Of a DNA stretch of 64,000 nt, positions 414-15,981 are shown piece after piece. Both the position numbers and the translations under genes were made by a program. How positions within the stretch are numbered: the stretch's first letter is position 1; the number at the start of each line of letters is the position of its first letter. The stretch is from Thermococcus barophilus MP. GTDB taxonomy: Archaea; Methanobacteriota_B; Thermococci; Thermococcales; Thermococcaceae. Where the stretch lies: the NCBI RefSeq assembly GCF_000151105.2, contig NC_014804.1, positions 496,001 through 560,000 on the forward strand. The letters are read 5' to 3'. The notes under the pieces are model-generated. The model saw only the letters and a program-made list of their open reading frames with translations. It did not search any database and had not been told where the DNA came from.

Positions 414-2072
414 TCAACCCATCATGTTCATGCCGCCCATTCCGCCCATGCCTTCCATTCCCTGTCCGGAGCCTTCGCTCTTAACTCTCTTTGCAGCTAT
501 GACGTCGTCGATTCTGAGGATCATGATTGCTGCTTCGCTTGCGCTCTTGATTGCCTGCTTCTTAACCCTCACAGGCTCAATGACACCCCTCTCAAGCATA
601 TCAGCAGGCTCACCAGCAAAAACATCAATTCCAATTGCTTTACCTTTAGTCTTATGTTCGCTGATGACCTTAACAAGCACATCAATTGTATCAAGTCCAG
701 CGTTCTCTGCTAATGTCTTGGGGATTATCTTAAGTGCATCTGAGAATGCCTCAATTGCTAAAGCTTCCTTTCCTCCAACTTGCTTTCCGTACTCATCAAG
801 CCTTATAGAGAGCTCAATCTCAGTTGCGCCTCCTCCCGGGAGAATTGCTCCGTCTTCCATGACATCCTTAACGACTTTAACGGCATCTTCAAGGGCTCTT
901 TCCACTTCATCAATGACGTGCTCTGTTCCACCCCTGATGAGGATTGTCACTGCCTTTGGATTCTTGCAGCCCTCGACGAAGATCATGTTCTCGCCGGCGA
1001 TCTTTCTTTCTTCAACGAGCTCTGCATAACCTAAATCTTCCGAAGTCAGGTCTTTTACATTTGTGACTATCTTGGCTCCTGTTGCTTTTGCTAACTTCTC
1101 CATGTCACTCTTCTTGACCCTCCTCACTGCCAGGATTCCAGCCTTAGCCAAATAGTGCTGTGCTAAATCATCAATACCCTTCTGAACAAACACAACATTT
1201 GCACCAGTAGCAACAATCTGGTCAACCATGTCTTTAATCATCTTTTCTTCCTGCTCAAGAAACGCATAAAGTTGATCTGGAGCAGTAATATTTATTTTTG
1301 CATCAGTCTCAGTCTTTTTAACTTCGAGAGCATCGTTTATGAGTGCAATCTTAGCTCTCTCAACCCTCTTTGGCATCCTTGGGTGGACCCTCTCTTTGTC
1401 AATCACGACACCTTTAATAAGCTGGCTCTCCTCAACGCTTTCTCCTTCCTTCTTCTCAATCTTGATGTTATCAATGTCCACCTCAAACTTGCCGTCCTTT
1501 TTCTCTGCAACCTGCTTGACAGCCTCAACTGCAAGCCTCGCTAAATGCTCTCTGTGTGATTCTGCACTCTTACCGGTGATTGCTGTTTTTGCTATCTTCA
1601 TAAGGGTCTCCTCATTTTCTGGGTCTACTTTTATTGCAATATCTCCAAGTATCTCTTGGGCTTTTTCAACGGCTAAGGTGTAGCCCTTCACAATTATGCT
1701 TGGGTGAATGTTTTGATCAATCAGCTCTTCAGCTTTCCTGAGAAGCTCACCGGCAATAACAACTGCTGTGGTTGTACCATCACCGGCTTCCTCATCTTGG
1801 GTCTTTGCGACTTCAACCATCATCTTTGCAGCTGGATGCTGAAGATCAATCTTGTCCAAAATAGTTGCACCGTCGTTTGTGATAACGATGTCGCCAAGGC
1901 TGTCAACGAGCATTTTGTCCATTCCTTTTGGTCCTAAAGTTGTTCTAACGGTCTCAGCAACAATCCTTGCAGCCAAGATGTTCAACCTCTGGGCATCTCT
2001 ACCCACATACCTTTGAGTTCCCTCAGGTAGAATAACTATTGGCTGTCCGCCCTGTCCAACAAGCTGTGCCAT
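414..2072 (-). CDS. Thermosome subunit (group II chaperonin, HSP60/CCT family)
   Basis: A 552-residue ATP-dependent chaperonin subunit that assembles into double eight-fold rings in the cytosol and refolds proteins. Seen: the ATP-binding signatures LGPKGMDK (about 46-53), NDGATIL (about 66-72) and GDGTTT (about 97-102), the full equatorial-intermediate-apical length, and a C-terminal Gly-Met-rich tail ([15 protein letters not shown]) typical of thermosomes. A strong AGGAGG ribosome site precedes the ATG, and a TTTTTTATA box lies at 2121-2129. Thermococcales usually carry one or two paralogues; which one this is cannot be told here. Heat-shock control by Phr is known for the family, but I do not claim a Phr site. 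Confidence 0.97.
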
Positions 2073-2279
2073 TTTCTTTTCCTCCTAAGATTTCAATACG
2101 CTCTTCATACGTTAGTGTTCTATAAAAAACTTTTGTTCAAAAATTCATATTTTAACTGAAATTTTTGTCAAATTGTCTGAAAAAAGCCAAACTTAATAGA
2201 ACAATCACAAAGGAATTAAGATGTGGAAGGTGGATAAGATATTTAACCATGAGATACAAACAAAAAAGAGGTTGGGCAT

Positions 2280-2572
2280 ATGGAGGAAGTAAAAATTTAC
2301 GAGATAAGAAAAGACAACATTAGAGCCATGCTTAAAGAAATTGCCGAATACAACTTAGCGGATATTGAGGTTGAAAATCGTGCATCGCTTGTAGATGATA
2401 TGCTGAAAAGCCCTGGGGATAGACTTAGCTATGCCCTTCAAAAGCTGGAAGAGAACGATGTTGACACTGCAAGGTTTGTCATAAAAGATGATGCTGGAAT
2501 CCTCATAGTAAAAATCGATGATATAATAACAATAAGGATATCCTTGAGGATTTTAGGCTTGTTACAGATTAA
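2280..2572 (+). pseudogene. Unidentified small gene, apparently frameshifted, upstream of Bud32
   Basis: An ATG at 2280 with GAGGT just upstream and a TATA-like GATATTTAACC at about 2238 opens a frame that runs in phase into the Bud32 gene. The last stretch in this frame (about 2520-2585) codes an unnatural-looking run, whereas one base over the same DNA reads NKDILEDFRLVTD followed by TAA at 2570-2572, 13 bp before the Bud32 ATG. The simplest reading is a separate protein of about 97 residues with a single-base indel near 2500-2525. The product (predicted mixed alpha/beta, acidic) is not recognised. The alternative is a true N-terminal extension of Bud32. Confidence 0.5.
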
Positions 2573-2585
2573 GCGGGTGGTGCTG

Positions 2586-3251
2586 ATGGAACTAATAAAG
2601 CAAGGAGCAGAAGCAAAAATCTATTTAGCTAAATTTGAAGAGCTTTATTTCCCATTTAATGGTGAAAAAGTAATTATAAAGCACCGCATTTCTAAACGAT
2701 ACAGGATAAAGGAGATTGATCAGAAGCTGAGAAAAGAGAGGACTGTTAGAGAAGCGAGAATTCTGCACAGAGCTAAAAAGTTTGGAGTTAATGTTCCTTA
2801 TATCTATGAAGTTGATTTGAAGGATATGAAAATTGTCATGGAATTCATTGAAGGAGAGCGTTTGAAGGAGTATTTGGAGAGAATCCCCATAGAGGAACGT
2901 TTAAAATTTTGCCGTGAAATTGGAAGACAAATTGGAAAACTGCATGAAGCTGGTATTGTTCATGGAGATTTGACAACATCTAACATGATTTTAAGAGATG
3001 GGAAAATTTACCTCATAGATTTTGGGCTGGCAGAGTTTGATAACACACTTGAAGCCCAAGGCGTTGATTTACATCTACTAAAGAGAGCTATGGAAAGCAC
3101 ACACTACAAATGGTTTGAGGAAGGCTTCGAGGCTGTTCTTGAGGGCTATGTAGAGGTTAGAGGCGAAGAGAAAGCTCAAAAGCTGAAAGAAAAGATAGAG
3201 GAGATTGAAAGCAGAGGCAGGTATGTAAGGGAGAGAAAGTGGATTAAGTGA
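2586..3251 (+). CDS. bud32: KEOPS complex protein kinase/ATPase Bud32
   Basis: A 221-residue small RIO-like kinase that works with Kae1 in the KEOPS complex for t6A37 modification of tRNA. Seen: the family start MELIKQGAEA, likely ATP lysine near 32, catalytic HGDLTTSN at 126-133 (Asp128, Asn133) and the metal-binding DFG at 145-147. The reading frame is open back to 2280, but this ATG has its own GGTGGT ribosome site at 2576-2581 and gives the usual family length, so I place the start here. The C-terminus lacks the canonical basic RKR-type tail but ends in lysine-rich VRERKWIK. The gene overlaps the convergent MutS-like gene by 8 bp. Confidence 0.88.
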   Translation: MELIKQGAEAKIYLAKFEELYFPFNGEKVIIKHRISKRYRIKEIDQKLRKERTVREARILHRAKKFGVNVPYIYEVDLKDMKIVMEFIEGERLKEYLERIPIEERLKFCREIGRQIGKLHEAGIVHGDLTTSNMILRDGKIYLIDFGLAEFDNTLEAQGVDLHLLKRAMESTHYKWFEEGFEAVLEGYVEVRGEEKAQKLKEKIEEIESRGRYVRERKWIK

Positions 3252-4941
3252 ATGCCCGCCACACCCTCTCAAAAATCTTCTTCTCTTTTCCTCTCTTGGC
3301 GCGGTAAAGCTTTTCAACAATCAGCTCTGGAGTGCTTTTGCCCAAAACCCCAAACTTTGGCTGTCTGTCAACAATTAGGTTGAGATTTTCATCCAAGCCT
3401 TGAGCTTCGATACCATCGACTCTCGCAAAGGGCAGCTCCTTCTTTAAATCCTCGCCCAAATGTGACACAATGATGACATAGAATCCTTTTTCATAAGCAA
3501 TCTTCAAGAGCTCCGCTATTATCTTGACAGCAGCTCCGGGTTCTGTTATTGCTTCAAACTCGTCAATCAAAATCAGCTTTCTCCCATCGCTTGTCAGTGC
3601 TCTCACAAAGCTCTTTAAAGCTGTTTCAAAAGCTCCGGCACCGTAAATGGATCGCTTTCGCTTGAAGAAGAAAAGCTCGTCTAAAACCTCGACCCAAGCT
3701 TTCTCGGCATTAACTGGAAAGCCCATATGAGTTAAGATAACTATTTGAGAGGTAAGCTCAAGCAGTGAAGTTTTTCCACCACTGTTTGCACCTGTCAAAA
3801 TAACGACCCTCTCACCGTTTACACCATTAAACTCTATTGGAGCCTTTCCAACAACATAGCTAACCGGCTGAGGATTCTTAATGAACAGATGCCTCCCATT
3901 TATGAAAGTGATTCCTCCTTCAATCAGCTCTGGGAATGTAAACCCTTCTGTAAATTCCTTCACAGCCCTTAAAAACTCCAGCTCATAGGCTTTGTTTATC
4001 TCCTCTCTAAGCTTTGGTATGAGGTGTTTTATTTCATCAAGAATTTCACGACTCTTCAAATACAACTCAATTTTGAGTTCCCTTTCCAGTTCTTGGTGCA
4101 AAGCCTCAATGCTCTCTGGAAGGACTTCGATGGGATAGAGGTTTTCTCGTGAAAACAGTTCAACAGTAAAGTTTAGCCTTTCACTGAGTCTTTTCTCCGC
4201 TTCATTTATTTCCTCAAGGATTTCACTCTCAATTTCGCTGAAGTGCTTAAATATTGCACCATAGTCCCCTTCTCTGAGCTCTTTTAGAAATTCCAATAGC
4301 TCCTTACCAGTCAAAGTTAGGCTGAATCTCTCAAGCTTTTCTGCGATTTTTTTGTTTAACCTTCTCTCTTCTTCTGCTATCAGCTCGTCAAGGTTTTCAA
4401 TCAATTCTCTTCGCTTCATTATTTCCTCTAACTCTCCTAACTTTTTCAAAATTGATTCAGCAACACTTTTTTCTCCAAGAAGGTTAGCAATTTGTGATAA
4501 AGCTTTCAATGTCTCTCTATTCTCCCAAAGAGGCATGATATAGAGCTCAGGAGCAATTTCACTTATGCTAAGCTCGACGTCAATTCCAATCCCTACGGTG
4601 CTTAGGGTCAAATCATATCCTTCCAAAGGCTCTGTTGAGACTTCACACACTCCCAAAGCTTGGGCTTTTTCTAATTCACTTTCATCAACGACCAAAAGCC
4701 TATCGTGCAGAAAATCCTTTTTAAAACGAATTGGCTCGATTTTTGCCAATATCCCTTTCAGTTCTGGCACAATTCTTGGAAAGTTTTCTTTAAAATAAGT
4801 CTGTCTCCTAAGAATCTCCTTTTTGTCATTTGTGGGTTCAAATTTATCAAGATAAGCTAAGCTCTCCTTAAGTTGAATCCTTTTCTTTATTTCCTCACGG
4901 ATGCTTTTGTAGATTGCTCTCGCTTCGCTGTTGAGCCTCAT
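3244..4941 (-). CDS. Archaeal MutS-related ATPase (MutS domain V, MutS2-like)
   Basis: 565 residues. The C-terminal half is the MutS ATPase core: Walker A GANSGGKTS (about 384-392), Walker B LILIDEFEA (about 462) and an H-loop VSHLGED. The N-terminal half is predicted helical and coiled-coil, as in MutS2 lever arms, but there is no mismatch-recognition domain I and no Smr domain visible. It probably binds branched or recombination DNA rather than mismatches, but this is inference. A TATA-like element lies about 30 bp before the ATG with no clear ribosome site, so translation may be leaderless. It is convergent with Bud32. Confidence 0.8.
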   Translation of the reverse strand: MRLNSEARAIYKSIREEIKKRIQLKESLAYLDKFEPTNDKKEILRRQTYFKENFPRIVPELKGILAKIEPIRFKKDFLHDRLLVVDESELEKAQALGVCEVSTEPLEGYDLTLSTVGIGIDVELSISEIAPELYIMPLWENRETLKALSQIANLLGEKSVAESILKKLGELEEIMKRRELIENLDELIAEEERRLNKKIAEKLERFSLTLTGKELLEFLKELREGDYGAIFKHFSEIESEILEEINEAEKRLSERLNFTVELFSRENLYPIEVLPESIEALHQELERELKIELYLKSREILDEIKHLIPKLREEINKAYELEFLRAVKEFTEGFTFPELIEGGITFINGRHLFIKNPQPVSYVVGKAPIEFNGVNGERVVILTGANSGGKTSLLELTSQIVILTHMGFPVNAEKAWVEVLDELFFFKRKRSIYGAGAFETALKSFVRALTSDGRKLILIDEFEAITEPGAAVKIIAELLKIAYEKGFYVIIVSHLGEDLKKELPFARVDGIEAQGLDENLNLIVDRQPKFGVLGKSTPELIVEKLYRAKRGKEKKIFERVWRAFT

Positions 4942-5027
4942 CTCTTGATGCTTATCGCAAAAGTTTATGAATATTTTCCCCTGAAATACAACATAAAGTT
5001 TAAAATTTTTAATGTGTATCGGTTGTT

Positions 5028-5552
5028 ATGCTGTTTGGGAAACTCATTAGCCCAAGATATCACTTGAGAATTTGGAAGCTGAAATTTGAGAAAGAGAAAA
5101 TTAAAGAGGGGTTAAGGCTGAGAAGCATCAAGTTCATTGAATTTCACGATAATTCTTACGATGCAGAGCTTAAAGTTGATTCTCTTCTCGCATCTGCAGT
5201 TAATGAAAAGTATGTCTACCTGATGAAGTTTGACGATGGAAATTTGCTCGTAATCAGCAAAAAGCCCTTAACCAAAGAGGGAATTCTAAAGCAAGACGCT
5301 TACTTGGTTCGTGATGAGGCTACACTAAAAAAGTTAATTTTAAGCCAAAGCTCTAAAAAAGCGCAGATTCTTATGGAATTCCAGCCCTTTATTGTCTGGT
5401 TTCCAATAGCGGTGATTCTGGTGTATCTGTCAAAAAGGATATCGACTTTGGAATTTCTCTTAGCATTCGGTGGGTATTTTGTTATAAAGAAGCTTCTCAG
5501 GATTTTGGAATACTACATCTTGGGGGTACTGCAGAGAATAGGGAAAAGGTGA
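5028..5552 (+). CDS. Hypothetical membrane protein with two C-terminal helices
   Basis: 174 residues. The first 125 are soluble, basic at the start, with predicted beta structure. Residues about 128-145 (FIVWFPIAVILVYL) and 150-165 (LEFLLAFGGYFVIKKLL) look like two membrane segments. The family is not recognised. It converges on moaC with a 2-bp gap. The ribosome site is weak (GGTTG). Confidence 0.6.
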   Translation: MLFGKLISPRYHLRIWKLKFEKEKIKEGLRLRSIKFIEFHDNSYDAELKVDSLLASAVNEKYVYLMKFDDGNLLVISKKPLTKEGILKQDAYLVRDEATLKKLILSQSSKKAQILMEFQPFIVWFPIAVILVYLSKRISTLEFLLAFGGYFVIKKLLRILEYYILGVLQRIGKR

Positions 5553-5554
5553 AA

Positions 5555-6025
5555 TTAAAGATAGTTTCCTTTGATCTTCTCGACAACTCTAATGTCATAA
5601 ATCCTCGTAACCGGGTACTGTCCCTTCTCGTCTTTTTCCACGGCTTTCACCATGTCCCAGATTGTAAGTAAAGCGACACTAACCCCTGTTAGAGCTTCCA
5701 TCTCAACCCCTGTCTTGTAGTATGCTCTTACTTCACAAGTTGCCTCAATGTAATCTTCTCCAAACTCAAAGCTTATGTCAACACCAGTTAGCGGAATAGG
5801 ATGGCACAGCGGTATTATCTCCCAAGTCCTCTTTACTGCCAAAATTCCAGCTATCTGTGCAGCTGCAAGTACATTTCCTTTTTTAGTTTTACCCTCTTGG
5901 ATAAGCTTTATTGTCTCCGGTTTGAGCCTTATCTTTCCTTTGGCAATCGCCTTTCTAAACACAACATCCTTATGACCAACTTCCACCATTTTAACGCCTT
6001 TTTCATCCACATGAGTGAGCTTCAT
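5555..6025 (-). CDS. moaC: Cyclic pyranopterin monophosphate synthase MoaC
   Basis: 156 residues, the normal length for MoaC, which converts the MoaA product 3',8-cyclo-7,8-dihydro-GTP to cPMP in molybdopterin/tungstopterin synthesis. Family motifs are clear: [18 protein letters not shown] near the N-terminus, [14 protein letters not shown] and [14 protein letters not shown] (substrate-binding LCHPI) in the middle, and the [23 protein letters not shown] segment in the C-terminal half, with the catalytic Lys in MVKAVEK. GGTGGT precedes the ATG. Thermococcales depend on tungstopterin for ferredoxin-linked aldehyde oxidoreductases, so the gene fits. Confidence 0.96.
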
Positions 6026-6111
6026 GCAACCACCACTTTTTCTACAATGGAAAAGTATTTAAGCTTTGAATTCTTACAATACATCGAAGTCCGAGGTATG
6101 GGGGTGATAAT

Positions 6112-6441
6112 ATGGATGAGTTCATTGTCGCAACCACCGAGCATGTTCCTGGTTACAAAGTCGTCAAGGTTCTTGGCATTGCGCGAGGGGCAACCGTTAG
6201 GGCTAAGCACATTGGAAAGGACATCCTTGCTGGGCTTAGAAATATAGTTGGTGGTGAGGTCAAAGAATACACTGAAATGCTTGCCGAGGCGAGAGAAGTG
6301 GCAATTCAAAGGATGATCGAACATGCGAAGAGCATGGGAGCAAATGCCGTCATTGGCGTTCGCTTCATGACCTCGAGCATTGCCGCTGGAGCCGCTGAGA
6401 TTTTTGCATATGGCACGGCAGTTATTCTTGAGAAAGAGTAG
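6112..6441 (+). CDS. UPF0145 (YbjQ) family protein
   Basis: 109 residues matching the YbjQ/UPF0145 family along its length: N-terminal VATTEHVPGYKVVKVLGIARG, then ARGATVRAKHIGKDI and the C-terminal GANAVIGVRF core. These small proteins form homopentamers in known structures and have been linked to metal binding, but the function is open. GGGGTGAT precedes the ATG. Its last 20 bases overlap a convergent short reading frame of the peptide operon. Confidence 0.85.
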   Translation: MDEFIVATTEHVPGYKVVKVLGIARGATVRAKHIGKDILAGLRNIVGGEVKEYTEMLAEAREVAIQRMIEHAKSMGANAVIGVRFMTSSIAAGAAEIFAYGTAVILEKE

Positions 6442-6535
6442 TTAACGTATCAATGACTTCCTCAATCTTTGGTTTTTGTGATATAATCGATCCAAAAAGG
6501 AAAATGAGAGTAGACAAATAAATTAAACGAGACAT
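6422..6535 (-). CDS. 37-residue predicted membrane peptide
   Basis: Short frame beginning MSRLIYLSTLIFLFGSII, a hydrophobic helix, followed by a charged tail KPKIEEVIDTLTTLSQE. A GGTGA ribosome site that overlaps the previous stop lies 8 bases before the ATG. It is the last gene of the peptide operon and its 3' end overlaps the convergent UPF0145 gene by 20 bp. One helix plus an acidic tail would fit a small immunity or accessory factor, but I have no family match. Support is coupling and ribosome site only. Confidence 0.4.
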   Translation of the reverse strand: MSRLIYLSTLIFLFGSIISQKPKIEEVIDTLTTLSQE

Positions 6536-6542
6536 TGGGAAT

Positions 6543-6650
6543 TCACCACAATAAGGCAATTAGGAGAGTAAAAGCAACAAGTAAAACGGTTATTGCGTCT
6601 ATAACCCAGTTGTCATGTGCGGTCTTGCCTTTGGGCATTTTCATATCCAT
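6543..6650 (-). CDS. 35-residue predicted membrane peptide
   Basis: Short frame starting MDMKMPKGKTAHDNWVIDA and ending with one hydrophobic helix, AITVLLVAFTLLIALLW. A GAGGG ribosome site lies 8 bases before the ATG and 33 bp separate it from the preceding peptide gene. The positively charged N-terminus and single C-terminal helix resemble small immunity proteins in bacteriocin clusters, which is an inference from position and topology only. No family is recognised. Confidence 0.45.
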   Translation of the reverse strand: MDMKMPKGKTAHDNWVIDAITVLLVAFTLLIALLW

Positions 6651-6682
6651 GTTCGTTTCCCTCTGAGATGTTGTCTGAGAAG

Positions 6683-6919
6683 TTATACTCCCACGATAAC
6701 TACTCCAAGAAACCATCCTGTAGCTGCACCTAGCGTGGCTACTATGCCAGCCTTAATAAGTGCTGTTCCCATCGCTAGCCCCCCACCAATTGTTACAGCC
6801 CCCATTTTCTCGGAATGTGTAATTTTCCATACTACAAAGCTTTCATGCCCAACTGCTCCTCCTACCACCATCCCCATGGCTATCAATACCAACCCTATAA
6901 CTAAAGCCTTCCTCCACAT
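6683..6919 (-). CDS. Bacteriocin-like hydrophobic peptide B (leader-core precursor)
   Basis: 78 residues with no cysteine. The first 23 (MWRKALVIGLVLIAMGMVVG onward) form a basic plus hydrophobic leader nearly identical to that of peptide A at 7815-8105; the DNA there is about 90% identical over 70 bp. The rest is Gly/Ala/Val-rich with helical stretches (about VTIGGGLAMGTALIKAGIV and a final GWFLGVVIVGV) and shares no obvious sequence with peptide A. I start at the ATG at 6919 because GGGGTGA sits 5 bases upstream; a GTG at 6928 is possible. The size, composition and adjacent DUF95 gene resemble AS-48-type circular bacteriocin precursors. Cleavage and cyclisation are inferred, not seen. Confidence 0.6.
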   Translation of the reverse strand: MWRKALVIGLVLIAMGMVVGGAVGHESFVVWKITHSEKMGAVTIGGGLAMGTALIKAGIVATLGAATGWFLGVVIVGV

Positions 6920-6924
6920 TTCAA

Positions 6925-7480
6925 TCACCCCAAGCTTTCGGCAATTTTTGCCGTAATAGTGCTCTCAATTAATGCGGCAATAAAAATCAGAATCATTGAG
7001 ATAAGAAAGAGTTTAAAGAATTCTTTAGCGTCCTCCTCGCTAATTATTTCTTCTTTCTTACCCAAGGCGAATCTTAACAGCTCGTAAGGAATCTTAAAAC
7101 CAGCAGCACCAGCAATGATGATAGCAGGGATCTCGAAGATGCCGTGAGGGAGAATCAAGAGGAAGAAAGTTTTAAGCTCCCCTAAATTTAGATAAGCGTA
7201 GAACATTACCCCTACGTTTACACCATTAAAAATCAAGTTTAAGAAAGTTAAGCCACCAAACGTTAAAACACCGCCGAAAGAAAGCAATAATACAACCTTA
7301 AGGTTGTTAAGGAAAATATAATGGAAAGAAAACATGTTCTCATTAAATTCATGTTCCAAAAGGGGTGCAGAATTAATATCATAAAGAATCCCATAACGTT
7401 CTGAAAGACTTAAAACCAAAGAGAAAGCCAATAGAGAAAAGCAATGACGAAAGAATCAAAAATATTCTTCGCCTTTTCAT
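6925..7480 (-). CDS. SpoIIM/DUF95 family membrane protein, apparent frameshift near the N-terminus
   Basis: The frame ending at 6925 carries a typical SpoIIM/DUF95 body: NNLKVVLLLSFGGVLTFGGL, the conserved LPHGIFEIPAIIIAGAAG motif and three to four membrane helices. In that frame the only start is a TTG at 7431 without a ribosome site. In the neighbouring frame an ATG at 7480 with GAGGTG upstream (7489-7494) encodes MKRRRIFLILSSLLFSIGFL, the expected first helix of the family. Joining the two needs a one-base shift at about 7400-7455, perhaps in the T4 run at 7411-7417. DUF95 proteins are standard partners in circular-bacteriocin operons and are also widespread archaeal membrane proteins. The gene is coupled to the one upstream. 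Confidence 0.75.
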
Positions 7481-7492
7481 AAATTTAACACC

Positions 7493-7768
7493 TCAAGGCA
7501 AGATTAAAAATGCTAGTGAAGCTATGATCTCTGTTATACCCGCAATTTTTAATATCATCTGATCTCTTGAGTTCAGGTAAAATATCATTCCCACAAACAA
7601 CATTGCAACGGGAAATAGCGGAAACTTGAAACCAAATCTGAGATAAGCAACAGCATAATACATAGATGATATTAAAGAGGATATGAAAAGCGTCTTGTAA
7701 GTTCCCCGAATAATTATAAAACCAATACCCACAAGGAACAACAAGATAGCAATTGTACTCGTAGCCAT
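7493..7768 (-). CDS. Small four-helix membrane protein of the peptide operon
   Basis: 91 residues, almost entirely hydrophobic, with four predicted membrane segments (around IAILLFLVGIGFIII, LFISSLISSMYYAVAYL, FPVAMLFVGMIFYL and KIAGITEIIASLAFLIL). I choose the ATG at 7768 because GGAGGG lies 7 bases upstream; a TTG at 7825 would extend it by 19 residues into the stop of peptide A. The family is not recognised. Placed between the peptide gene and the DUF95 gene, it occupies the position of small immunity or maturation membrane proteins in circular-bacteriocin clusters (inference). Confidence 0.6.
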   Translation of the reverse strand: MATSTIAILLFLVGIGFIIIRGTYKTLFISSLISSMYYAVAYLRFGFKFPLFPVAMLFVGMIFYLNSRDQMILKIAGITEIIASLAFLILP

Positions 7769-7814
7769 TATGCTTCCCTCCAAAGGGTAAAAGTAAAAGT
7801 TCGAGAATAAAAGC

Positions 7815-8105
7815 TCATCCAACAATCAAAACTCCAGTCCCTATTAAACCTAACCCAAGATACGATGCAACGACAGTAGCAGTTGTTCTAACAGCCTGAC
7901 GCTCGGCAATGCCCCAAAGTATACTACCAGCCGCAGTTACAGCAGACCCTGCTTCGACGGTACTCTTATCCCCACTTGTGTCCTTATGATGCCATGCATG
8001 CCAAGCCCATAATGCGAGTCCTATATTGCTGCTTTCAACCGCTCCTCCAACTACCATCCCTATGGTTATCAATACCAACCCTAACACTAAAGCCTTCCTC
8101 CACAT
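7815..8105 (-). CDS. Bacteriocin-like hydrophobic peptide A (leader-core precursor)
   Basis: 96 residues, no cysteine. The leader MWRKALVLGLVLITIGMVVG matches peptide B almost residue for residue, then the sequence diverges completely: a Trp/His-rich patch (ALWAWHAWHH), a polar linker (KDTSGDKS), then Ala/Gly/Val-rich helices ending GLIGTGVLIVG. The ATG at 8105 is supported by AGGAGGTG five to six bases upstream; an in-frame extension to 8168 has no such support. It is first in the minus-strand operon, about 65 nt after the probable transcription start. A conserved leader with a variable core is the hallmark of ribosomal antimicrobial peptides; activity is not shown by sequence. Confidence 0.6.
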   Translation of the reverse strand: MWRKALVLGLVLITIGMVVGGAVESSNIGLALWAWHAWHHKDTSGDKSTVEAGSAVTAAGSILWGIAERQAVRTTATVVASYLGLGLIGTGVLIVG

Positions 8106-8194
8106 TTGGGACACCTCCTGGTTCTTCATATTATGAATGTTGTGGATACTACTTAAAGTTTTCTTCATAATTATTGTCGCCGTGTTTTTTTTTT

Positions 8195-8231
8195 CTTATA
8201 ATTTTGTTTGAACAAGTGACAATATATAAAA
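8195..8231. promoter_or_regulatory. Divergent promoter pair between the peptide operon and the ABC operon
   Basis: On the plus strand AATATATAAAA (8221-8231) lies about 50 bp before the permease start. On the minus strand TTATAAG (8195-8201) lies about 25 bp before the likely start of the peptide-operon transcript. The two boxes are only about 20 bp apart, so binding at one would interfere with the other. A T-run (8185-8194) sits in the minus-strand leader. Confidence 0.55.
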
Positions 8232-8280
8232 GGTAATTATTTTAAACAAATTAATTGCTATTCAAGAACTGGTGATGAGT

Positions 8281-9252
8281 GTGAAAGCCATCAACATAGC
8301 GATGAAGGATTTCGAAGTTAGCATTAGAACAAGAAAATTTCAAATAATAATAGCTCTCTTCACAATAATCTCTCTGGGAATGATTTATAGCTCAAAAAGA
8401 CTTGGCATAAGTGCAAACTTATATAAAACGCCCTTCCAAATGCTCTTCCTCTCAAGCTTCTCCAATGCGTTCAACTACTCAATAGCCTCATTAGGAATTC
8501 TCCTTGGAGCAACTGCAATAAACGAAGAAATTGAAAAAGGAACCCTAAAGTTAGTAGCTTCAAAGCCAGTATATAGGGATGAAATAATTGCTGGCAAGCT
8601 CCTGGGGGGTTTGTTAACCCTTAGCGTAGCCTTAGCGTTGTTCTATATCTTAACAGTGGCTTTTGCACTAATCTTAGGAGTTCTAATAACCGGAGATGAC
8701 CTGATGAAGTTTTTAGCAACTTTTCCCTTCAGCACGCTCTATGGATTAGTTTTCTTGAGCTTGGGTCTGTTAGTTTCAACACTCATTAAAAAATCTAAAA
8801 ATGCTCTAATAATGTCAATTTTCCTGTTTGTCTTCTTTGGCTTTTTGCTTTCAATAATCGCTGGGGTAGTAGCATTTGCAGTGGCTGGCTTGCCTCCAGT
8901 TCCCAATATCCCCGAGAATGCTACAAATCTGAGCGATGAACAGCTTCAAGAGATATTCCTTAAAGACCAGGCATATCAGGCATGGCTGACCAAGCTGACA
9001 ATAACGGCAGAGAAAATCCTTTATATCTCTCCAAACTACCATTATCAGGAAATAATCAGGATACTCTTTGGAGGAAAACCTCAAATTAGTGATATAGTAT
9101 CGGCCTTAGCTTATGAGCAGAGTGTCGTGGAGGAAAGATCAATCGTAGAGAGTCTTGGGCTGGTATGGGAGAATATCACTGCACTACTTATCATGTTCAT
9201 TTTTCCTTTTGCGATGGCCTATGTAAGGTTCATGAAAGCTGATTTGAGGTGA
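8281..9252 (+). CDS. ABC-2 type transporter permease 1 (NosY-like)
   Basis: 323 residues with about six membrane helices and a large extracellular loop (about residues 205-265). It shares with the two other permeases here the motifs NIAMKDF at the N-terminus, a [26 protein letters not shown] segment after helix 2, and the end [12 protein letters not shown] start at GTG 8281 because the paralogues start at the equivalent codon and GGTGATG precedes it; ATG 8275 is possible. It heads the plus-strand operon and is followed by an ATPase remnant, 4 bp away. Export of the neighbouring peptides or self-protection against them is a reasonable inference. Confidence 0.85.
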
Positions 9253-9256
9253 TAGT

Positions 9257-9451
9257 ATGTATGCCATAGAGATTGAAAACCTCACGAAGAGTTACGGGAA
9301 TTCTAAAGCTGTCGACGGTTTAAGTTTGGAGGTGCATAAGGGAGATGTTTTTGGATTTCTTGGCCCAAATGGTGCCGGAAAAACCACAACAATACTAAGC
9401 ATGTTGGGCTTAATAATCCCTGACAGTGGAACCGTAAAAATCTTGGGATAG
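9257..9451 (+). pseudogene. Truncated ABC ATPase (remnant of a duplicated permease-ATPase module)
   Basis: 64 codons encode the first part of a CcmA-type ATPase, including Walker [14 protein letters not shown], and are nearly the same as the start of the complete ATPase at 10488. Translation stops at TAG (9449-9451) after VKILG. One base out of frame the next codons continue DIFKG, as in family members, and then homology ends. There is no signature motif or Walker B, so it cannot be an active ATPase by itself. A deletion after tandem duplication explains the structure. Confidence 0.85.
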
Positions 9452-9565
9452 ATATCTTTAAGGGACTCCTACCACATATTATTCCGGTCAAACTTATATT
9501 AATAGTAAGCTTTATAAACAAGCACAGCATAAAGGAATGTAAAGCTTACTTTACAGGTGGTGACA

Positions 9566-10483
9566 ATGAACCCAATTTTGAATGTTGCAATTAAAGACCT
9601 TCAAGAAAGTATTAAAACCAAACGACTAGCAATAACACTTGCAATTTTTATTTTAGCTGGAATTGGGATGGCTTACTGGCTAAAGAGTGTAATGATGAAT
9701 GTTCCATTTTCATCCGGAGACGAGCAGTTTTTAAGCAGAGCCATAAGGGGAAACCTCCTTTCAACAGCAAAGAACTTTCTTGCAATATTTTCCATGCTGA
9801 TAGGTGCTGATGCGATAAACAGAGAAATCGAAAGCGGAACGATAAAAGTGACACTTGGGCATCCTATTTACAGAGATCAGTTTATCCTTGGAAAACTCCT
9901 TGGAAGGGCAGTTACTGTTATGTTTGGCTTTGCAATTTTTTCTGTGGTGAGCACAGCATCGATGCTTATAATAGGGATTCCTCTCAACACTGACATACTT
10001 CTGACTTTCATAAAGCCTCTGCCGTTCTTCGTACTATTCTCCCTTGTGTACCTTTCACTTGGGGTGCTCCTTTCAACGGCGATAAAAAAGCCCTCGACAG
10101 CAATAATAGTTGCAATAATACTCCCAATTTTTCTTGAGATGGTTTATCCGATGGTTGTGTCTATGGTAATAGCCATCAAGGCCTTTGCCTCTGGTGGAGC
10201 ATCACCCCAAGCAATTCAGGAGATCGTTAGGAAGGTGCAGACATTTCTCATGATACAGCCTGGTTTTCACATGGAAAACATTAACAATGCAATATTTTAT
10301 GGAATGACTTCCTCTCAAATTGCTACCTCTGGCGTGGCATTTCAGGTATCACCTCAGATATCAGGTGTATCATATGTTGAAGCACTGAGCTTGGCTTGGA
10401 AGAACATAGTCTTACTTTTTGTCATGATGCTGATTCCATTTGCCCTTGCCTATTTGAGATTCATGAAAGCTGATTTGAGGTGA
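9566..10483 (+). CDS. ABC-2 type transporter permease 2 (NosY-like)
   Basis: 305 residues with six predicted membrane helices. It begins MNPILNVAIKDLQESIKTKR, contains GADAINREIESGTIKVTLGHPIYRDQFILGKLLG after helix 2, and ends [11 protein letters not shown] like permease 1. The ATG at 9566 follows GGTGGTGAC. A TATA-like GCTTTATAAAC at about 9510-9520 suggests an internal promoter created next to the ATPase truncation. A complete ATPase gene follows 4 bp downstream, so this is probably its main partner. Confidence 0.87.
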   Translation: MNPILNVAIKDLQESIKTKRLAITLAIFILAGIGMAYWLKSVMMNVPFSSGDEQFLSRAIRGNLLSTAKNFLAIFSMLIGADAINREIESGTIKVTLGHPIYRDQFILGKLLGRAVTVMFGFAIFSVVSTASMLIIGIPLNTDILLTFIKPLPFFVLFSLVYLSLGVLLSTAIKKPSTAIIVAIILPIFLEMVYPMVVSMVIAIKAFASGGASPQAIQEIVRKVQTFLMIQPGFHMENINNAIFYGMTSSQIATSGVAFQVSPQISGVSYVEALSLAWKNIVLLFVMMLIPFALAYLRFMKADLR

Positions 10484-10487
10484 TTCT

Positions 10488-11402
10488 ATGTACGCTATAG
10501 AGATTGAAAACCTGACAAAAAGTTATGGAAATTTAAAGGCTGTTGATGATCTTACATTAAACGTCGAAAAGGGCATTGTATTTGGATTTCTTGGCCCGAA
10601 CGGTGCTGGAAAGACAACAACGATATTGAGCATGCTCGGCCTTATCATACCCGACAGCGGGAGCATAAGAATTCTCGGACACGACGTTTTCAGGGAGCCA
10701 ATTCAAGTAAAAGAAAAGATTGGATTTTTGCCAGAGAATGCCACCATCTATGAAGAACTAACAGCTTGGAAAAACTTGGACTTTTTCGCAAACTTCTATA
10801 GGTTTTCACGGCAAGAAAAGGAAAAGCGCATTGAAGAGCTTTTAAAGCTCGTTGGACTTTGGGATGTGAAGTACAGGAAAGTTAAGACATTTTCAAAAGG
10901 AATGAAGCAACGCCTGCTGCTTGCTCAAGCTCTGATAAACGATCCCGAGGTTCTTATCTTGGATGAGCCAACGAGTGGACTCGATCCTGAAGGTGCTTAC
11001 TTGGTGAAGAGCATCGTAAAGGAAGAGCGCGAAAAAGGGAAGACGGTGTTCTTCTCCTCACACGTATTGAGCGAAGTCGAAGAACTAAGTGATAAGGTTG
11101 GAATAATTGTGAAGGGCAGGCTTAGAGCATTAGGAACCCTTGAGGAAATTAAAAAAGAATTCATGGAGCTTGAAGGGTATGAGATAAAGGTGGAAACCAA
11201 ACAGCCTCTGCCCGAAATTGATCTGCCGGAAATAATAAGCATCAAACGTATCGGCGATAGTAGGGCAATAATATTTGCAAAGGAGGATATCAGGGAAGAG
11301 CTTTCGGAATACCTGTCAAGGAAAGGGATAACGATTCTGAGCCTTGAAATAGAGGAGCCAAGTTTGGAGGATGTTTTCTTGAAGACAATCTACAAGAGGT
11401 GA
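10488..11402 (+). CDS. ABC transporter ATP-binding protein (CcmA/NatA-like)
   Basis: 304 residues, complete. Walker [11 protein letters not shown] (about 38-47), Q-loop region, signature FSKGMKQR (about 138), Walker B VLILDEPTSGLDP (about 158) and H-loop FFSSHVLSEVEE are all present, with the C-terminal extension usual for this class. It is the only intact ATPase of the locus and must serve all three permeases if they are active. It overlaps or abuts the next gene through GAGGTGAT. Confidence 0.93.
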   Translation: MYAIEIENLTKSYGNLKAVDDLTLNVEKGIVFGFLGPNGAGKTTTILSMLGLIIPDSGSIRILGHDVFREPIQVKEKIGFLPENATIYEELTAWKNLDFFANFYRFSRQEKEKRIEELLKLVGLWDVKYRKVKTFSKGMKQRLLLAQALINDPEVLILDEPTSGLDPEGAYLVKSIVKEEREKGKTVFFSSHVLSEVEELSDKVGIIVKGRLRALGTLEEIKKEFMELEGYEIKVETKQPLPEIDLPEIISIKRIGDSRAIIFAKEDIREELSEYLSRKGITILSLEIEEPSLEDVFLKTIYKR

Positions 11403-11407
11403 TAAAA

Positions 11408-13600
11408 ATGAAGAAGCTCTCTACTGTGATGTTGCTGTTTCTTCTTCTGTCTTCAATTGCTCAGGCTCAGCCATGGATTGAAGTTTTTCAGGGAAAGGTA
11501 AAGATAGGTGAAACCCTTATAGTGGGGAAGTATCAAATCAAGATAACGCAGGAGAAAGAAACTCTGATGCCCTATGCAATAATCTACAAAGGTAATGAGA
11601 TAATAAAAGTTGCAGGGCTGAATGATACAATTGAAGCAGAAAAAATCAGGATAATCCCGGGAAGCTTTAATCCCGAAAGTGAAGAAGTCTTTTTGGTTGT
11701 CCAGTATGAGCCAAGCCTGTTCAATGAGATAAAACCCAAAGCAGGGCTTTCATTCAGTGTGAATGGATACTCCATAAAAATCCTAAACTCATCAGAAGAA
11801 AGCGCTGAGCTAAGCATAAATGGGGCTGAGATAATAGTGAAGAGCAACACATCCCGGGTTTATGACAAACTTGCATTTGTGTACAATGGTGAAATTCTGC
11901 GTGTTTATTATGCCGACGTCAGCGTTAAATTGGAAGAGAAGAGAGATTATGAAATCTATTATCCATTTGAAAGCCTAAACGTCAAGGCTGGGGAGGAAAT
12001 TAGGATTCCAATTTCCATAATAAACAACGGAAACGATGAGCTGCAGCTTCCCGTTCAGGTAACTTCAAAGCCTCCCAGCTGGGACGCTAAGATAATCGAC
12101 GGACAGAGTGGATATGATGTCAGTGAGATCATTCTTAGACCAAAAAGCTCTGCACAGCTTTTCCTTGATGTAAAGATACCCGAAGACAGTGAAGGTATTG
12201 AAACAGTAACCTTTGCAGTTGGTGAAGAAATAGGTGCTGTGAAAATCAGCGTTACAAAAGAAAGTGGCATGGAAGTGAAAGTTCCAATTCTCGGCGTGGA
12301 GGCTGAAGCAGGTGATACCTTAAAGCTTCCCGTTGAGATAATCAACAAAGGAAAGGAAAAAGAGGTCACCCTTGAGGTTAAAGGGAAGCCTCAAAACTGG
12401 AACGTTTACTTCATGCTTAATGGACAGAGGGTTAGGTCAGCCCTTCTGGATAAACAGTTATCTTTTACCCTCGTTATTGAAACCCCAAGGAATGCAGACC
12501 TTGGGATGCATAGTATAGCGTTCTCTGTAAACGGTATAGAAAAGAGGGTGTCGGTTTTCATCTACAGGACCCACAAAGGGGAACCCGCAAAGCTCATACT
12601 GACGGTCAAAGACGAAGATGGGAACTTTGTTGGAAAAGCAGAGGTAACGGTCGGAAATGAAACGGCCTTTACGGACAGCTACGGAAAAGTGGAGCTTGAG
12701 GTCAAGTCCGGAAAATATTTGCTTGTGATAGAAAAAGAGGGCTATGAGAAGTTTGAAAAAATCATTAAGCTTGAGGATGGAGAAGAGAAAAGCCTTGACG
12801 TAACGCTGGTCAAGCTTCCCTACTACTTTACCGTAGAGGGTCAAGGAGATATAGTGCAGGTTAAAACCGGAGGAATTGGAACGTATACGTTCACAATAAA
12901 CAATCTTGGAAAGAATGATGATACGTATTCGCTGTCCTGTTTAGGAATCCCTGAAGAATGGTCTGCCGAGTTTTACATGAACGAAATCCCTATAAAAAAC
13001 GTTCAGGTTGATGCAGGTAAATCAAAAGATGTTCTGCTCAGAATAATTCCTCCGTTCAATGCACAGCCCGGCAATTACAACATCACGATAAGCATAAAAA
13101 GCTCCTCCGGAATTGAAAGAACTCTTTCGCTGATGGTTAAGCTTGTTGGTGAATATAGGATTGAGCTTTATCCCCAAACACCGATGATAAGCGTTAAGGC
13201 TGGAAGTGAGGGAAGGGCTGTTGTAAACCTTCAAAACTCTGGAACAGCTCCAATAACCAATGTAAAATTTGAGGTCTCCGCTCCCCAGGGTTGGGACGTT
13301 AAGGTTGTCCCCAGCTCAATTCCTGAACTTAAACCGATGGTTTTTGGTGGTGGGAACGTCAAGGCAATTGCAGTGCCCTCTCAACATACGAGCGTTCAGG
13401 TTATCGTGAAGGTGCCAAAAACCACTCCTGCTGGGACATACCAGATAACCATCACAGCCAAGGGCGATCAGGCACAGGCAAGTACTCAGATAACGGTTAG
13501 AGTAACTCAGAGCTCAAAATCAGCCTACCTTGGAATTCTGATACTCCTCTTGACATTTGGTGCAGTGATATGGATGATGAGGAGGGTAGGGAGGAGATGA
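11408..13600 (+). CDS. Surface-anchored NEW3-type multidomain protein of the ABC operon
   Basis: 730 residues. An N-terminal signal peptide (KLSTVMLLFLLLSSIAQA) is followed by repeated Ig-like NEW3-type domains (for example YYPFESLNVKAGEEIRIPIS, VEAEAGDTLKLPVEIINKG, YPQTPMISVKAGSEGRAVV), a carboxypeptidase-regulatory-like beta domain near 400-470 (KLILTVKDEDGNFVGKAEVT), and a C-terminal helix AYLGILILLLTFGAVIWMM ending in arginines. It would sit outside the membrane, held by the last helix. NEW3 proteins often accompany archaeal ABC-2 exporters. The start at ATG 11408 follows GAGGTGAT; the stop overlaps the next start (ATGA). Confidence 0.82.
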   Translation: MKKLSTVMLLFLLLSSIAQAQPWIEVFQGKVKIGETLIVGKYQIKITQEKETLMPYAIIYKGNEIIKVAGLNDTIEAEKIRIIPGSFNPESEEVFLVVQYEPSLFNEIKPKAGLSFSVNGYSIKILNSSEESAELSINGAEIIVKSNTSRVYDKLAFVYNGEILRVYYADVSVKLEEKRDYEIYYPFESLNVKAGEEIRIPISIINNGNDELQLPVQVTSKPPSWDAKIIDGQSGYDVSEIILRPKSSAQLFLDVKIPEDSEGIETVTFAVGEEIGAVKISVTKESGMEVKVPILGVEAEAGDTLKLPVEIINKGKEKEVTLEVKGKPQNWNVYFMLNGQRVRSALLDKQLSFTLVIETPRNADLGMHSIAFSVNGIEKRVSVFIYRTHKGEPAKLILTVKDEDGNFVGKAEVTVGNETAFTDSYGKVELEVKSGKYLLVIEKEGYEKFEKIIKLEDGEEKSLDVTLVKLPYYFTVEGQGDIVQVKTGGIGTYTFTINNLGKNDDTYSLSCLGIPEEWSAEFYMNEIPIKNVQVDAGKSKDVLLRIIPPFNAQPGNYNITISIKSSSGIERTLSLMVKLVGEYRIELYPQTPMISVKAGSEGRAVVNLQNSGTAPITNVKFEVSAPQGWDVKVVPSSIPELKPMVFGGGNVKAIAVPSQHTSVQVIVKVPKTTPAGTYQITITAKGDQAQASTQITVRVTQSSKSAYLGILILLLTFGAVIWMMRRVGRR

Positions 13601-14517
13601 ATGTCTTCAATATAGCAATGAAAGAATTTTACGTTTCAATAAAGAGCAAGCGCTTTGTCATAATCCTTCTCCTTTACGTTATTTACCTCCTGCTTGTGGC
13701 ATACGCTTTAAGGAATCATCTTGCGGAGCTCTCAAAGCCAACTGTTGGCACTACAAATCTTGAGCCCTTTGGGACCAGAGGAGAAGTATTTCAAACACCG
13801 CTTTCAATGATGCTTATAGCTAACTTTTCCTTCTTCACGATAATTGGCGGCATAATGGGAGCCTCCCTTGGAGCCGATGCCATAAACAGGGAAATTGAAA
13901 CCGGAACAATAAAGACACTTCTTGGACATCCCGTGTACAGGGATGAGGTAATAAATGGAAAATTTTTGGGAAATGGTCTCGTTCTTGGAATAACCGTCAT
14001 GGTAGGATACCTTTTTACCGTTGCGTACCTTCTGATAATTGGAATTCCCATCGATGGTGAATCCTTTTTTAGGGGGCTTATTGCATTCCTTGTAACACTG
14101 CTGTACTCCCTTACGTTTCTAAGCATCGCAATTCTTATTTCAACAATGGTTAGAAAGCCCGAGACTTCGATGCTTATCTCAATCGGGCTGGCGATCTTCT
14201 TAACTCTGGTCTATGGAATTATAGTATCTTTAATTGCCGAGCATCTTGCCGGAGAAATGCCGCCTTATGGCCCAGCGTTTAGGGTGTGGAGAGAGAACGT
14301 TCTGCTCTGGGAGCAGAGGCTTCACCTCATAAATCCAGCCCATCATTATGCCGCTTTAGTGCTTGCTGTATTTGCAGGAGACAGAATAGCCAATTCATAC
14401 CTCCCCCTGTCAGAAGTTCTGGCACTTGCACTGAACAACTTAGCAATGCTGGTGGTGTTTTTAATGCTACCCTTTGCCCTTGCTTATGTGAGGTTCATGA
14501 CAAGTGATTTAAATTAA
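13597..14517 (+). CDS. ABC-2 type transporter permease 3 (NosY-like)
   Basis: 306 residues, six predicted membrane helices, starting MNVFNIAMKEFYVSIKSKRF and carrying GADAINREIETGTIKTLLGHPVYRDEVINGKFLG and the end AYVRFMTSDLN. ATG 13597 overlaps the stop of the NEW3 gene and has GGGAGGAG just upstream; an ATG at 13570 would lie inside the upstream gene. It is the third paralogue in one operon and the last gene of the plus-strand set. Convergent with rtcB. Confidence 0.88.
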   Translation: MNVFNIAMKEFYVSIKSKRFVIILLLYVIYLLLVAYALRNHLAELSKPTVGTTNLEPFGTRGEVFQTPLSMMLIANFSFFTIIGGIMGASLGADAINREIETGTIKTLLGHPVYRDEVINGKFLGNGLVLGITVMVGYLFTVAYLLIIGIPIDGESFFRGLIAFLVTLLYSLTFLSIAILISTMVRKPETSMLISIGLAIFLTLVYGIIVSLIAEHLAGEMPPYGPAFRVWRENVLLWEQRLHLINPAHHYAALVLAVFAGDRIANSYLPLSEVLALALNNLAMLVVFLMLPFALAYVRFMTSDLN

Positions 14518-14541: not shown

Positions 14542-15981
14542 TCAGCCCTTGGCAACTCCAATAGGTCTCATCCTTGCAACCAGCTTTGCAATTCCTGCCT
14601 TTGCAACGACATTGACGACGTTGTCAACGTTCTTATAAGCCCCCGGAGCCTCTTCAGCGACAACCCTTAGACTCGCTGCCCTGATGTAGATTCCTCTCTG
14701 CATGAGCTCATTTCTAAGCCTGTCCCCTCTGTACTGCCTTGTAGCGGCTTTTCTGCTGAGAACTCTTCCAGCGCCGTGGCATGTTGAACCAAATGCTTCT
14801 TTCATTGCCCCTTCGGTTCCAGCTAAGACATAGCTTGCGGTTCCCATTGAACCAGGAATAAGCACCGGCTGCCCGACGTCTCTGTAAATCCTTGGCACCG
14901 CCTCATGCCCAGGTGGGAATGCCCTTGTAGCACCTTTTCTGTGAACAACAACCTTAACTTTTCTTCCATCTACCTCATGCTCCTCAAGCTTGGCTATGTT
15001 GTGGGCAACATCATAAACAATGTGCATCCCAAGATCTTCAGCTTTTTGTCTGAACACTTCTTCAAAGCTCTCCCTTACCCAGTGGGTGATCATCTGCCTG
15101 TTTGCCCAAGCGAAGTTTGCAGCAGCTTTCATAGCACTGAAGTATCTCTGTCCCTCCTCGCTTTGGAACGGGACGCTGACAAGTTCTCTGTCTGGCCATG
15201 GGATCCTGTATTTTCTGTTGGCTTTTTCCATAATTCTGAGATAGTCGCTTGCAACCTGATGACCCAAACCTCTTGATCCTGTGTGAACCATCACAACCAC
15301 TTGCCCCTCGAAAAGGCCGTAAACCTCAGCCACTTCTGGATCGAATACCTTGTCCACAACTTGCACCTCAAGGAAGTGATTTCCGCTGCCAAGAGAGCCA
15401 AGCTGTGGTGCACCTCTTCTCTTTGCTGTATCACTTACGTAAGAGGGGTTTGCTCCTTCCATTCCCCCTCCTTCTTCCAGTCTCTCCAAGTCCTCTCTCC
15501 ATCCGTAGCCGTTGTCAACTGCCCACTTTGCACCCTCTGCTAAAACGTCATCAAGCTGGGTCCACTGAAGCCTGACCCTTCCTTTGCTACCCAATCCGCT
15601 TGGAACGTTCTTGAAGAGCGTATCAATGAGTTGCTTGATCTTTGGTCTTACATCCTTCTCGGTAAGGTTTGTTCTGATTAACCTCACTCCACAGTTGATG
15701 TCATAGCCCACTCCACCTGGGCTGATAACTCCTTCTTTGGCGTCAAAAGCCGCAACACCACCAATTGGGAAACCATATCCCTGATGACCATCTGGCATGA
15801 CTATAGAATACTTGTAAATTCCAGGAAGCATGGCTACATTCGCAGCTTGCTCAAGTGTTCTATCTTGACGCATTTTTTGAATTAAAACATCATCTGCATA
15901 GACTCTCCCGGGAACCCTCATTCTCTTGTCAAACTTGGGTATCTCCCATCTTATCTGATCTATCCTTTTCAATGGAACCAT
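14542..15981 (-). CDS. rtcB: tRNA-splicing ligase RtcB
   Basis: 479 residues, a GTP-dependent RNA ligase joining 2',3'-cyclic phosphate and 5'-OH ends during tRNA splicing. Seen: [16 protein letters not shown] with the metal-binding Cys, [26 protein letters not shown], and the guanylylated histidine in [12 protein letters not shown]. No intein is present, unlike some Pyrococcus RtcB genes. GGAGGTGG precedes the ATG. The archease gene lies upstream in the same direction, 50 bp away, so the ligase and its activator are probably co-transcribed. Confidence 0.97.

Follow-up and report, generated by a model that had tools for sequence, protein, structure and literature searches.

A locus in the genome of the archaeon Thermococcus barophilus MP is very probably an acquired, polymorphic, bacteriocin-type peptide toxin/immunity module of the Thermococcaceae, to judge from comparison of its genes with those of relatives. 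The locus lies within a stretch of 64,000 nucleotides (assembly GCF_000151105.2, contig NC_014804.1, positions 496,001 to 560,000, forward strand), which I will call the window and whose first letter is position 1, and it comprises two gene cassettes, each encoding a precursor peptide made of a conserved leader and a variable core, together with a divergently encoded ABC-2 permease. The original prediction, drawn from the letters of this DNA, had taken the locus for a relative of the circular-bacteriocin clusters; all of the genes that it named are present in their places, and its idea of a bacteriocin-type cluster is strongly supported by the pairing of cores with small membrane proteins, by arrays of such small proteins standing alone, by the exchange of cores between genomes and by the co-occurrence of the permease with the peptides. 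Genomes are cited below by G numbers and loci by L numbers.

A conserved leader and hypervariable cores

When an alignment of 21 precursors was searched against 94 Thermococcaceae genomes, as the original prediction had recommended for its two peptides, the family was recovered in 17 of them (17 at E<1e-5), belonging to five genera, and in none of 21 further genomes sampled from the phylum. The N-terminal leader, MWRKALVLGLVLMAIGMVVGG, is nearly invariant and the remainder of the precursor is hypervariable in both sequence and length; both window peptides share this 22-residue leader, which has a basic start, a hydrophobic stretch and small residues, and ends in two glycines (GG). The cores have a median length of 70 amino acids (aa; intact precursors have cores of about 52 to 99), begin with a hydrophobic residue and mostly end with one. 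Codon comparison of matched related cores gave ratios of nonsynonymous to synonymous substitution (dN/dS) of 0.07-0.36 for most pairs where the ratio was computable, the exceptions being one nearly identical pair at 0.71 and one pair that was saturated, and since most pairs lie well below 1, these are real genes under selection. The absence of cysteine remarked upon at the outset holds for both window peptides but not for the family, 10 of the 29 tabulated cores having cysteine. Neither the precursors nor the small proteins have a credible match in Pfam, NCBIfam, PHROGs or PADLOC, a precursor profile search of the PDB returned nothing, and the viral contigs and plasmids searched gave no match, so that nothing points to carriage by a virus or plasmid.

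Some matches to the hidden Markov model (HMM) of the leader were rejected, namely an open reading frame (ORF) at L111 4713, which is instead an immunity-type protein, and weak matches within long ORFs of genus g3, which were set aside as chance. Another leader match lies on a separate contig of G085 (L109 7013-7267), with none of the window's genes detected nearby, and the end of a G115 contig carries a further precursor (L112 9377-9616), the leader plus KYQKKADYYWDKYEKALAEGNTAKAEYYRAKAERY, its core being related to the mimic type described below.

Cores and their small membrane proteins

In nearly every intact copy the cassette runs from the precursor to a small membrane protein and then to a SpoIIM/DUF95 protein, with ribosome-binding sites (RBS), and the type of the small protein tracks the type of the core. 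Cores of the type KAEVGLVFAKDYL... are followed by a small protein beginning MEKxIVFSLFLIFS..., cores NLTYRxTKxYTNPEKA... by a protein of 71-73 aa, cores SYLTYYMAKxGASPEA... by one beginning MGxVERRLL..., and the HESFVVWKITHSEKMG core of the window and its relative in G025 by homologous proteins of 35 and 31 aa with one transmembrane (TM) segment. For 29 core/small-protein pairs, which were picked by hand as the first well-placed downstream ORF and include a few cores from frameshifted copies, similarity among cores is closely coupled to similarity among small proteins (Mantel r=0.87, p=5e-5), whereas the leader follows neither (leader-core r=-0.01, leader-small r=-0.10) and the coupling of the core with the DUF95 N-terminus is weak (r=0.34). 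The 29 cassettes fall into about a dozen or more specificity types, and their small proteins span 31-130 aa (median 80 aa, grand average of hydropathy (GRAVY) 0.97, charge +3). In one core type (L063/L067/L069) the small protein contains 32 residues that nearly copy the core encoded just upstream, KYHxYMELYRxAL... (z=13-16), a resemblance that suggests immunity by mimicry, and the small protein and the upstream core gene may share ancestry. In two relatives, further short ORFs adjoin peptide cassettes, one resembling the antitoxin of a toxin-antitoxin pair (L066 8625-8825, MEVIEAVYEKGVLKPLKPLKL...) and one resembling a PIN-type start (L073 5813-6171, MIVIDTSVWLDLFLE...).

The same two genes stand out when cassettes of different genera are aligned. 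Between G009a and G031b, nucleotide identity reaches 0.93 for the core and 0.87-0.92 for the small protein, against 0.51-0.65 in the upstream region, 0.73 for the leader and 0.71-0.75 for DUF95, and the silent-site difference is 0.79 for the leader and 0.15 for the core; G023a and G016b present a like pattern, and G031a and G025b show the dip at the leader only, their upstream region being 0.88-0.92 identical as well. High identity of core and small protein inside a diverged leader and DUF95 therefore means that the two move as a unit, and they appear to be transferred jointly behind the resident leader, as toxin and immunity genes are. Small-protein genes also accumulate on their own: next to its dedicated permease G113 carries nine ORFs of this kind, belonging to eight types and interspersed with neither precursor nor DUF95, while G020 likewise has nine, G023 has six, G016 five and G007 several. 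The 91-aa protein of the window, likewise proposed at the start as a search query, has family homologues only in the peptide-positive genomes G113 (75%) and G023 (60%), both of which lack a core to match it. Orphan arrays of this kind look like the footprint that acquired immunity would be expected to leave.

A dedicated permease and its arrival

Beside rtcB, most of the family carries a resident operon of permease, ATPase, NEW3-domain protein and permease, irrespective of peptides, and the first permease of this operon exists in two kinds. The subfamily of the window's perm1 (at least 60% identity) is found in 15 of 17 peptide-positive but 0 of 77 peptide-negative genomes (Fisher p=1.5e-15, phylogeny being ignored), and in a tree it forms a separate clade, within which the branching does not follow the genera. 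It may replace the ancestral permease within the operon (e.g. in G031, G028, G025, G015, G022 and G113), stand beside it (in the window and G009) or lie with the cassette elsewhere in the genome (G007, G020 and G023). The permease and the cassette genes have decayed together in G019, which retains a fragment of the permease and a broken DUF95 but lacks the peptide, and in G016, where the permease is in fragments and both precursors are damaged; G012 and G016 have kept several small-protein genes with no intact permease, which favours, weakly, a role for the permease in production over one in immunity. The original prediction had counted the whole ABC operon as part of the cluster; only perm1 belongs to it, the ATPase, the NEW3 protein and the other permeases being present in peptide-negative relatives too, and it is possible that the resident ATPase provides the energy for perm1. 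As to rtcB itself, it is uninterrupted in the window (14542-15981), and in many relatives a large in-frame insertion, probably an intein, gives frames of 880-970 aa (e.g. L116 11055-13868, L121 10644-13460).

How the system came to the window can be read from its edges. In blastn comparison with G003 (L116), a peptide-negative genome of the same genus, homology covers 550-6440 (94%) and resumes over 9479-11745 (77%), and G003 has an empty site of 31 base pairs where the window carries an insert between the gene at 6112-6441 and the resident ABC operon. Because this insert breaks off inside the 5' part of an ATPase gene, its donor was an operon in which the permease had been replaced. The part of the insert with the permease shows 89.8% nucleotide identity to G033, a member of another genus, to which the moaC region is only 72% identical, and horizontal transfer follows from this difference.

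Genes of the window locus

The features are collected in Table 1. The original prediction had placed both peptides in one operon, for which the window has instead two precursor cassettes, and the tiny membrane peptides that might have passed for further toxins have been reassigned. One of them (6543-6650) is the candidate for immunity in cassette 2, its homologues being the protein of 31 aa that follows the matching core in G025 (L069) and the orphan copies of G113; the other (6422-6535) begins with MSRLIYLSTLIFLFGSI, similar to the starts of intact DUF95 proteins such as MSRQVFYFSTFIFLFSI, and has a weak tblastn match to the DUF95 N-terminus of L074 (E=0.088), so that it is probably a DUF95 N-terminus and the DUF95 of cassette 2 has probably been mostly lost. 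The core of peptide 2 has a relative in G025, there with a matching small protein. The DUF95 gene of cassette 1 contains, relative to its homologues, a one-base frameshift near 7411-7420 beside a TTTT run, the ATG at 7480 starting an ORF of 33 codons and the rest of DUF95 lying in the next frame. The shift is due either to an error in sequencing or to genuine damage. With this frameshift and the stub of cassette 2, peptide production by the window strain may be impaired. Split copies of DUF95 are also seen in the relatives L074, L075, L108, L073 and L076, and decay of this gene appears to be common among them.

Table 1. Features of the peptide locus and the adjoining ABC operon (positions in the window)
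Feature	Position	Strand	Basis or remark
Horizontally acquired insert, ~3 kb	6441-9478		Two cassettes, dedicated permease, 5' ATPase copy
Precursor peptide 1, 96 aa	7815-8105	-	Leader family; RBS AGGAGGTG
Leader of precursor peptide 1 (first 22 codons)	8040-8105	-	Core in the remainder
Small membrane protein, 91 aa, three TM segments; immunity candidate for peptide 1	7493-7768	-	Gene position, RBS
SpoIIM/DUF95 of cassette 1	6925-7480	-	Intact ORF 6925-7431; Pfam PF01944 E=1.9e-32; homologues 57-85%
Precursor peptide 2, 78 aa	6683-6919	-	Leader as in peptide 1, different core (GHESFVVWKITHSEKMG type)
One-TM protein, 35 aa; immunity candidate for peptide 2	6543-6650	-	Homologues in G025 and G113
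ORF of 37 aa, probable N-terminal stub of cassette 2 DUF95	6422-6535	-	Cut off at the insert edge
Dedicated ABC-2 permease, perm1	8272-9252	+	PF12679 4e-37; divergent from the cassettes
ATPase 5' end, truncated duplicate	9257-9451	+	Donor side of insert; identity to the start of the intact ATPase at 10488-11402 is given as 86%, and in nucleotides as 76.6%
Resident ABC-2 permease, perm2	9557-10483	+	Peptide-negative G003 and G006 have an orthologue (78%) in this operon
Resident ABC ATPase	10488-11402	+	The operon carries its orthologue in genomes with and without peptides
Resident NEW3-domain surface protein	11399-13600	+	Occurs with or without peptides (32 of 37 Thermococcaceae genomes)
Resident third ABC-2 permease, perm3	13570-14517	+	Found in peptide-negative relatives

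Proposed mechanism

Each cassette would yield a precursor in which the conserved hydrophobic leader precedes a helical core that is variable and for the most part hydrophobic. The leader would be removed at or near GG by a protease other than one of the C39 family, processing by C39 having been rejected when no C39 peptidase was found in any of the 94 Thermococcaceae genomes (control genomes were positive). The SpoIIM/DUF95 membrane protein would serve maturation or export of the core, and the dedicated permease, whether encoded divergently or in place of the first permease of the resident operon, would export the peptide, probably with the resident ATPase. The mature core would then act on the membranes of related archaea that have no matching small protein, and the cognate small membrane protein would protect the producer. 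A more elaborate picture, rather unlikely when taken as a whole, is that these are archaeal circular bacteriocins whose core and immunity genes reassort between genera behind a resident leader, whose replacement permease captures a housekeeping ABC transporter and at least one of whose immunity types relies on mimicry: a copy of the toxin's 32-residue helix, anchored in the membrane, would block assembly of the toxin.

Alternative explanations

Several points weigh against a toxin/immunity module. Co-transfer of adjacent genes can inflate the correlation between cores and small proteins, yet the leader and DUF95 are adjacent as well and do not follow them; the Fisher test takes no account of phylogeny; the damaged DUF95 genes of the window mean that this locus may be partly decayed; and searches of Pfam, NCBIfam and the PDB and the alignment with AS-48 revealed no homology of the cores with known bacteriocins. 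The question whether the core would be linear or circular is of a different order, these being alternative forms of the module and not alternatives to it. A linear, unmodified, membrane-active peptide, released by signal-peptidase-like cleavage and accompanied by a DUF95 protein for export or self-protection only, has a chance somewhat below even, being in keeping with a leader that resembles a signal peptide and forms a confident helix in the AlphaFold model, with the lack of any modifying enzyme noted in the cassettes and with the missing C39 peptidase; the leader is nonetheless conserved far beyond the need of an ordinary signal peptide, and the DUF95 partner is nearly constant. The chance of a true archaeal circular bacteriocin, with the core joined head to tail after removal of the leader and with help from DUF95 and ABC proteins, as for AS-48 or leucocyclicin Q, I would put somewhat below even, and I would say the same of cyclisation of the core as such. 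SpoIIM is present in almost every circular-bacteriocin cluster (PMC7132975, PMC6131525), as it is in nearly every intact cassette here, and when the DUF95 protein of leucocyclicin Q was removed, mature circular peptide stayed within the cells (work cited in PMC7132975). Moreover, the SpoIIM of AS-48 aligns with the cassette DUF95 (hhalign E=1.5e-6 over 117 columns), the length and terminal residues of the typical core would suit cyclisation, and no other modifying enzyme was noted. However, DUF95 scores higher against a Thermococcaceae housekeeping paralogue than against the AS-48 SpoIIM, a core alignment with AS-48 (hhalign) has probability 0, core length varies widely among intact precursors, and no counterpart of the second, large membrane protein of AS-48 was noted. 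Two AlphaFold models are all-helical but of low confidence (pLDDT, the predicted local distance difference test, 58.5 and 56.4) with no defined saposin fold, and a Foldseek search of the PDB with the first of these low-confidence models gave no fold match.

The remaining explanations would replace the toxin/immunity module altogether. A peptide pheromone with a cognate membrane receptor, serving communication and not killing, would account for specific pairing of peptide and membrane protein and for their diversification, but it is quite improbable given that some partners have no more than 31-35 aa and a single TM segment, with no signalling domain, and given genomes in which many partner types accumulate without peptides, which fits acquired protection better than listening. 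Still less probable is a complex for membrane remodelling or vesicle formation, as proposed in the account of arCOG01996/DUF95 in PMC5898192: the protein family is the same, the neighbourhood is similar and all of the components are membrane proteins, but hypervariable cores behind a constant leader, the coupling of core and small protein, their exchange and the orphan arrays would be left unexplained, and the distribution is patchy. An intracellular membrane toxin-antitoxin pair or phage-triggered suicide module, for which a small hydrophobic toxin with a small membrane partner and the membrane-associated defence suggested for DUF95 islands in a passage of PMC4158269 might speak, is likewise highly improbable, because a dedicated ABC permease and a conserved leader imply export, and the cassette genes have no PADLOC match.

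Significance and comparison with known systems

If confirmed, the toxin/immunity module would add a peptide-weapon system to an archaeal group for which none was found described, since the literature covered, which did not extend to Makarova et al. 2019 (mBio, on archaeal toxins), contained no published peptide antimicrobial of the Thermococcales. The 29 cassettes would provide a direct and testable map of toxins and immunities, account for a 'dark matter' DUF95 island formerly assigned to defence or membrane remodelling, and supply candidate heat-stable, possibly cyclic peptides, and the mimic type of immunity and the replacement of a permease would inform our understanding of peptide action and export. 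Those dark-matter islands, for which defence or antimicrobial-peptide transport (Makarova 2014, PMC4158269) and membrane remodelling (Makarova 2015, PMC5898192) were proposed, have in common with the present cassettes an arCOG01996/DUF95 protein with highly diverged small membrane proteins, including in Pyrococci and Thermococci, and in some cases an ABC transporter nearby; the passages of the two papers devoted to them say nothing of precursors with leader and core, of the pairing of cores with cognate immunity proteins, of orphan arrays or of a dedicated permease. The VARTIG hypervariable immunoglobulin (Ig) modules (PMC8416519) are also hypervariable conflict loci of the Thermococcales, but they consist of large Ig-domain proteins, and DUF95, SpoIIM and ABC are absent from the text of that paper. 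With the double-glycine (C39) class II bacteriocins the family shares a leader ending in GG and differs in the hydrophobic nature of the leader and in the missing C39 peptidase.

Circular bacteriocins (AS-48, leucocyclicin Q and the uberolysin/carnocyclin family) come closer, having a hydrophobic leader-core precursor with a core of about 70 aa and gene clusters that combine this precursor with SpoIIM/DUF95, a small hydrophobic, cationic immunity-type protein beside it and ABC transport genes (PMC6131525, PMC7132975). The Thermococcaceae locus resembles such a cluster in gene content and is an unproven candidate for membership, but it is archaeal (the circular-bacteriocin literature examined does not mention archaea), its cores have no sequence similarity to theirs, its conserved leader stands before hypervariable cores with immunity candidates that differ by core type, and its permease joins a resident ABC operon. 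In general organization it also recalls the polymorphic and colicin-type toxins, with which it shares a conserved delivery part, an exchangeable toxin part, an adjacent cognate immunity gene and orphan immunity arrays, the difference being that the toxin would here be a small membrane-type peptide and not an enzymatic domain.

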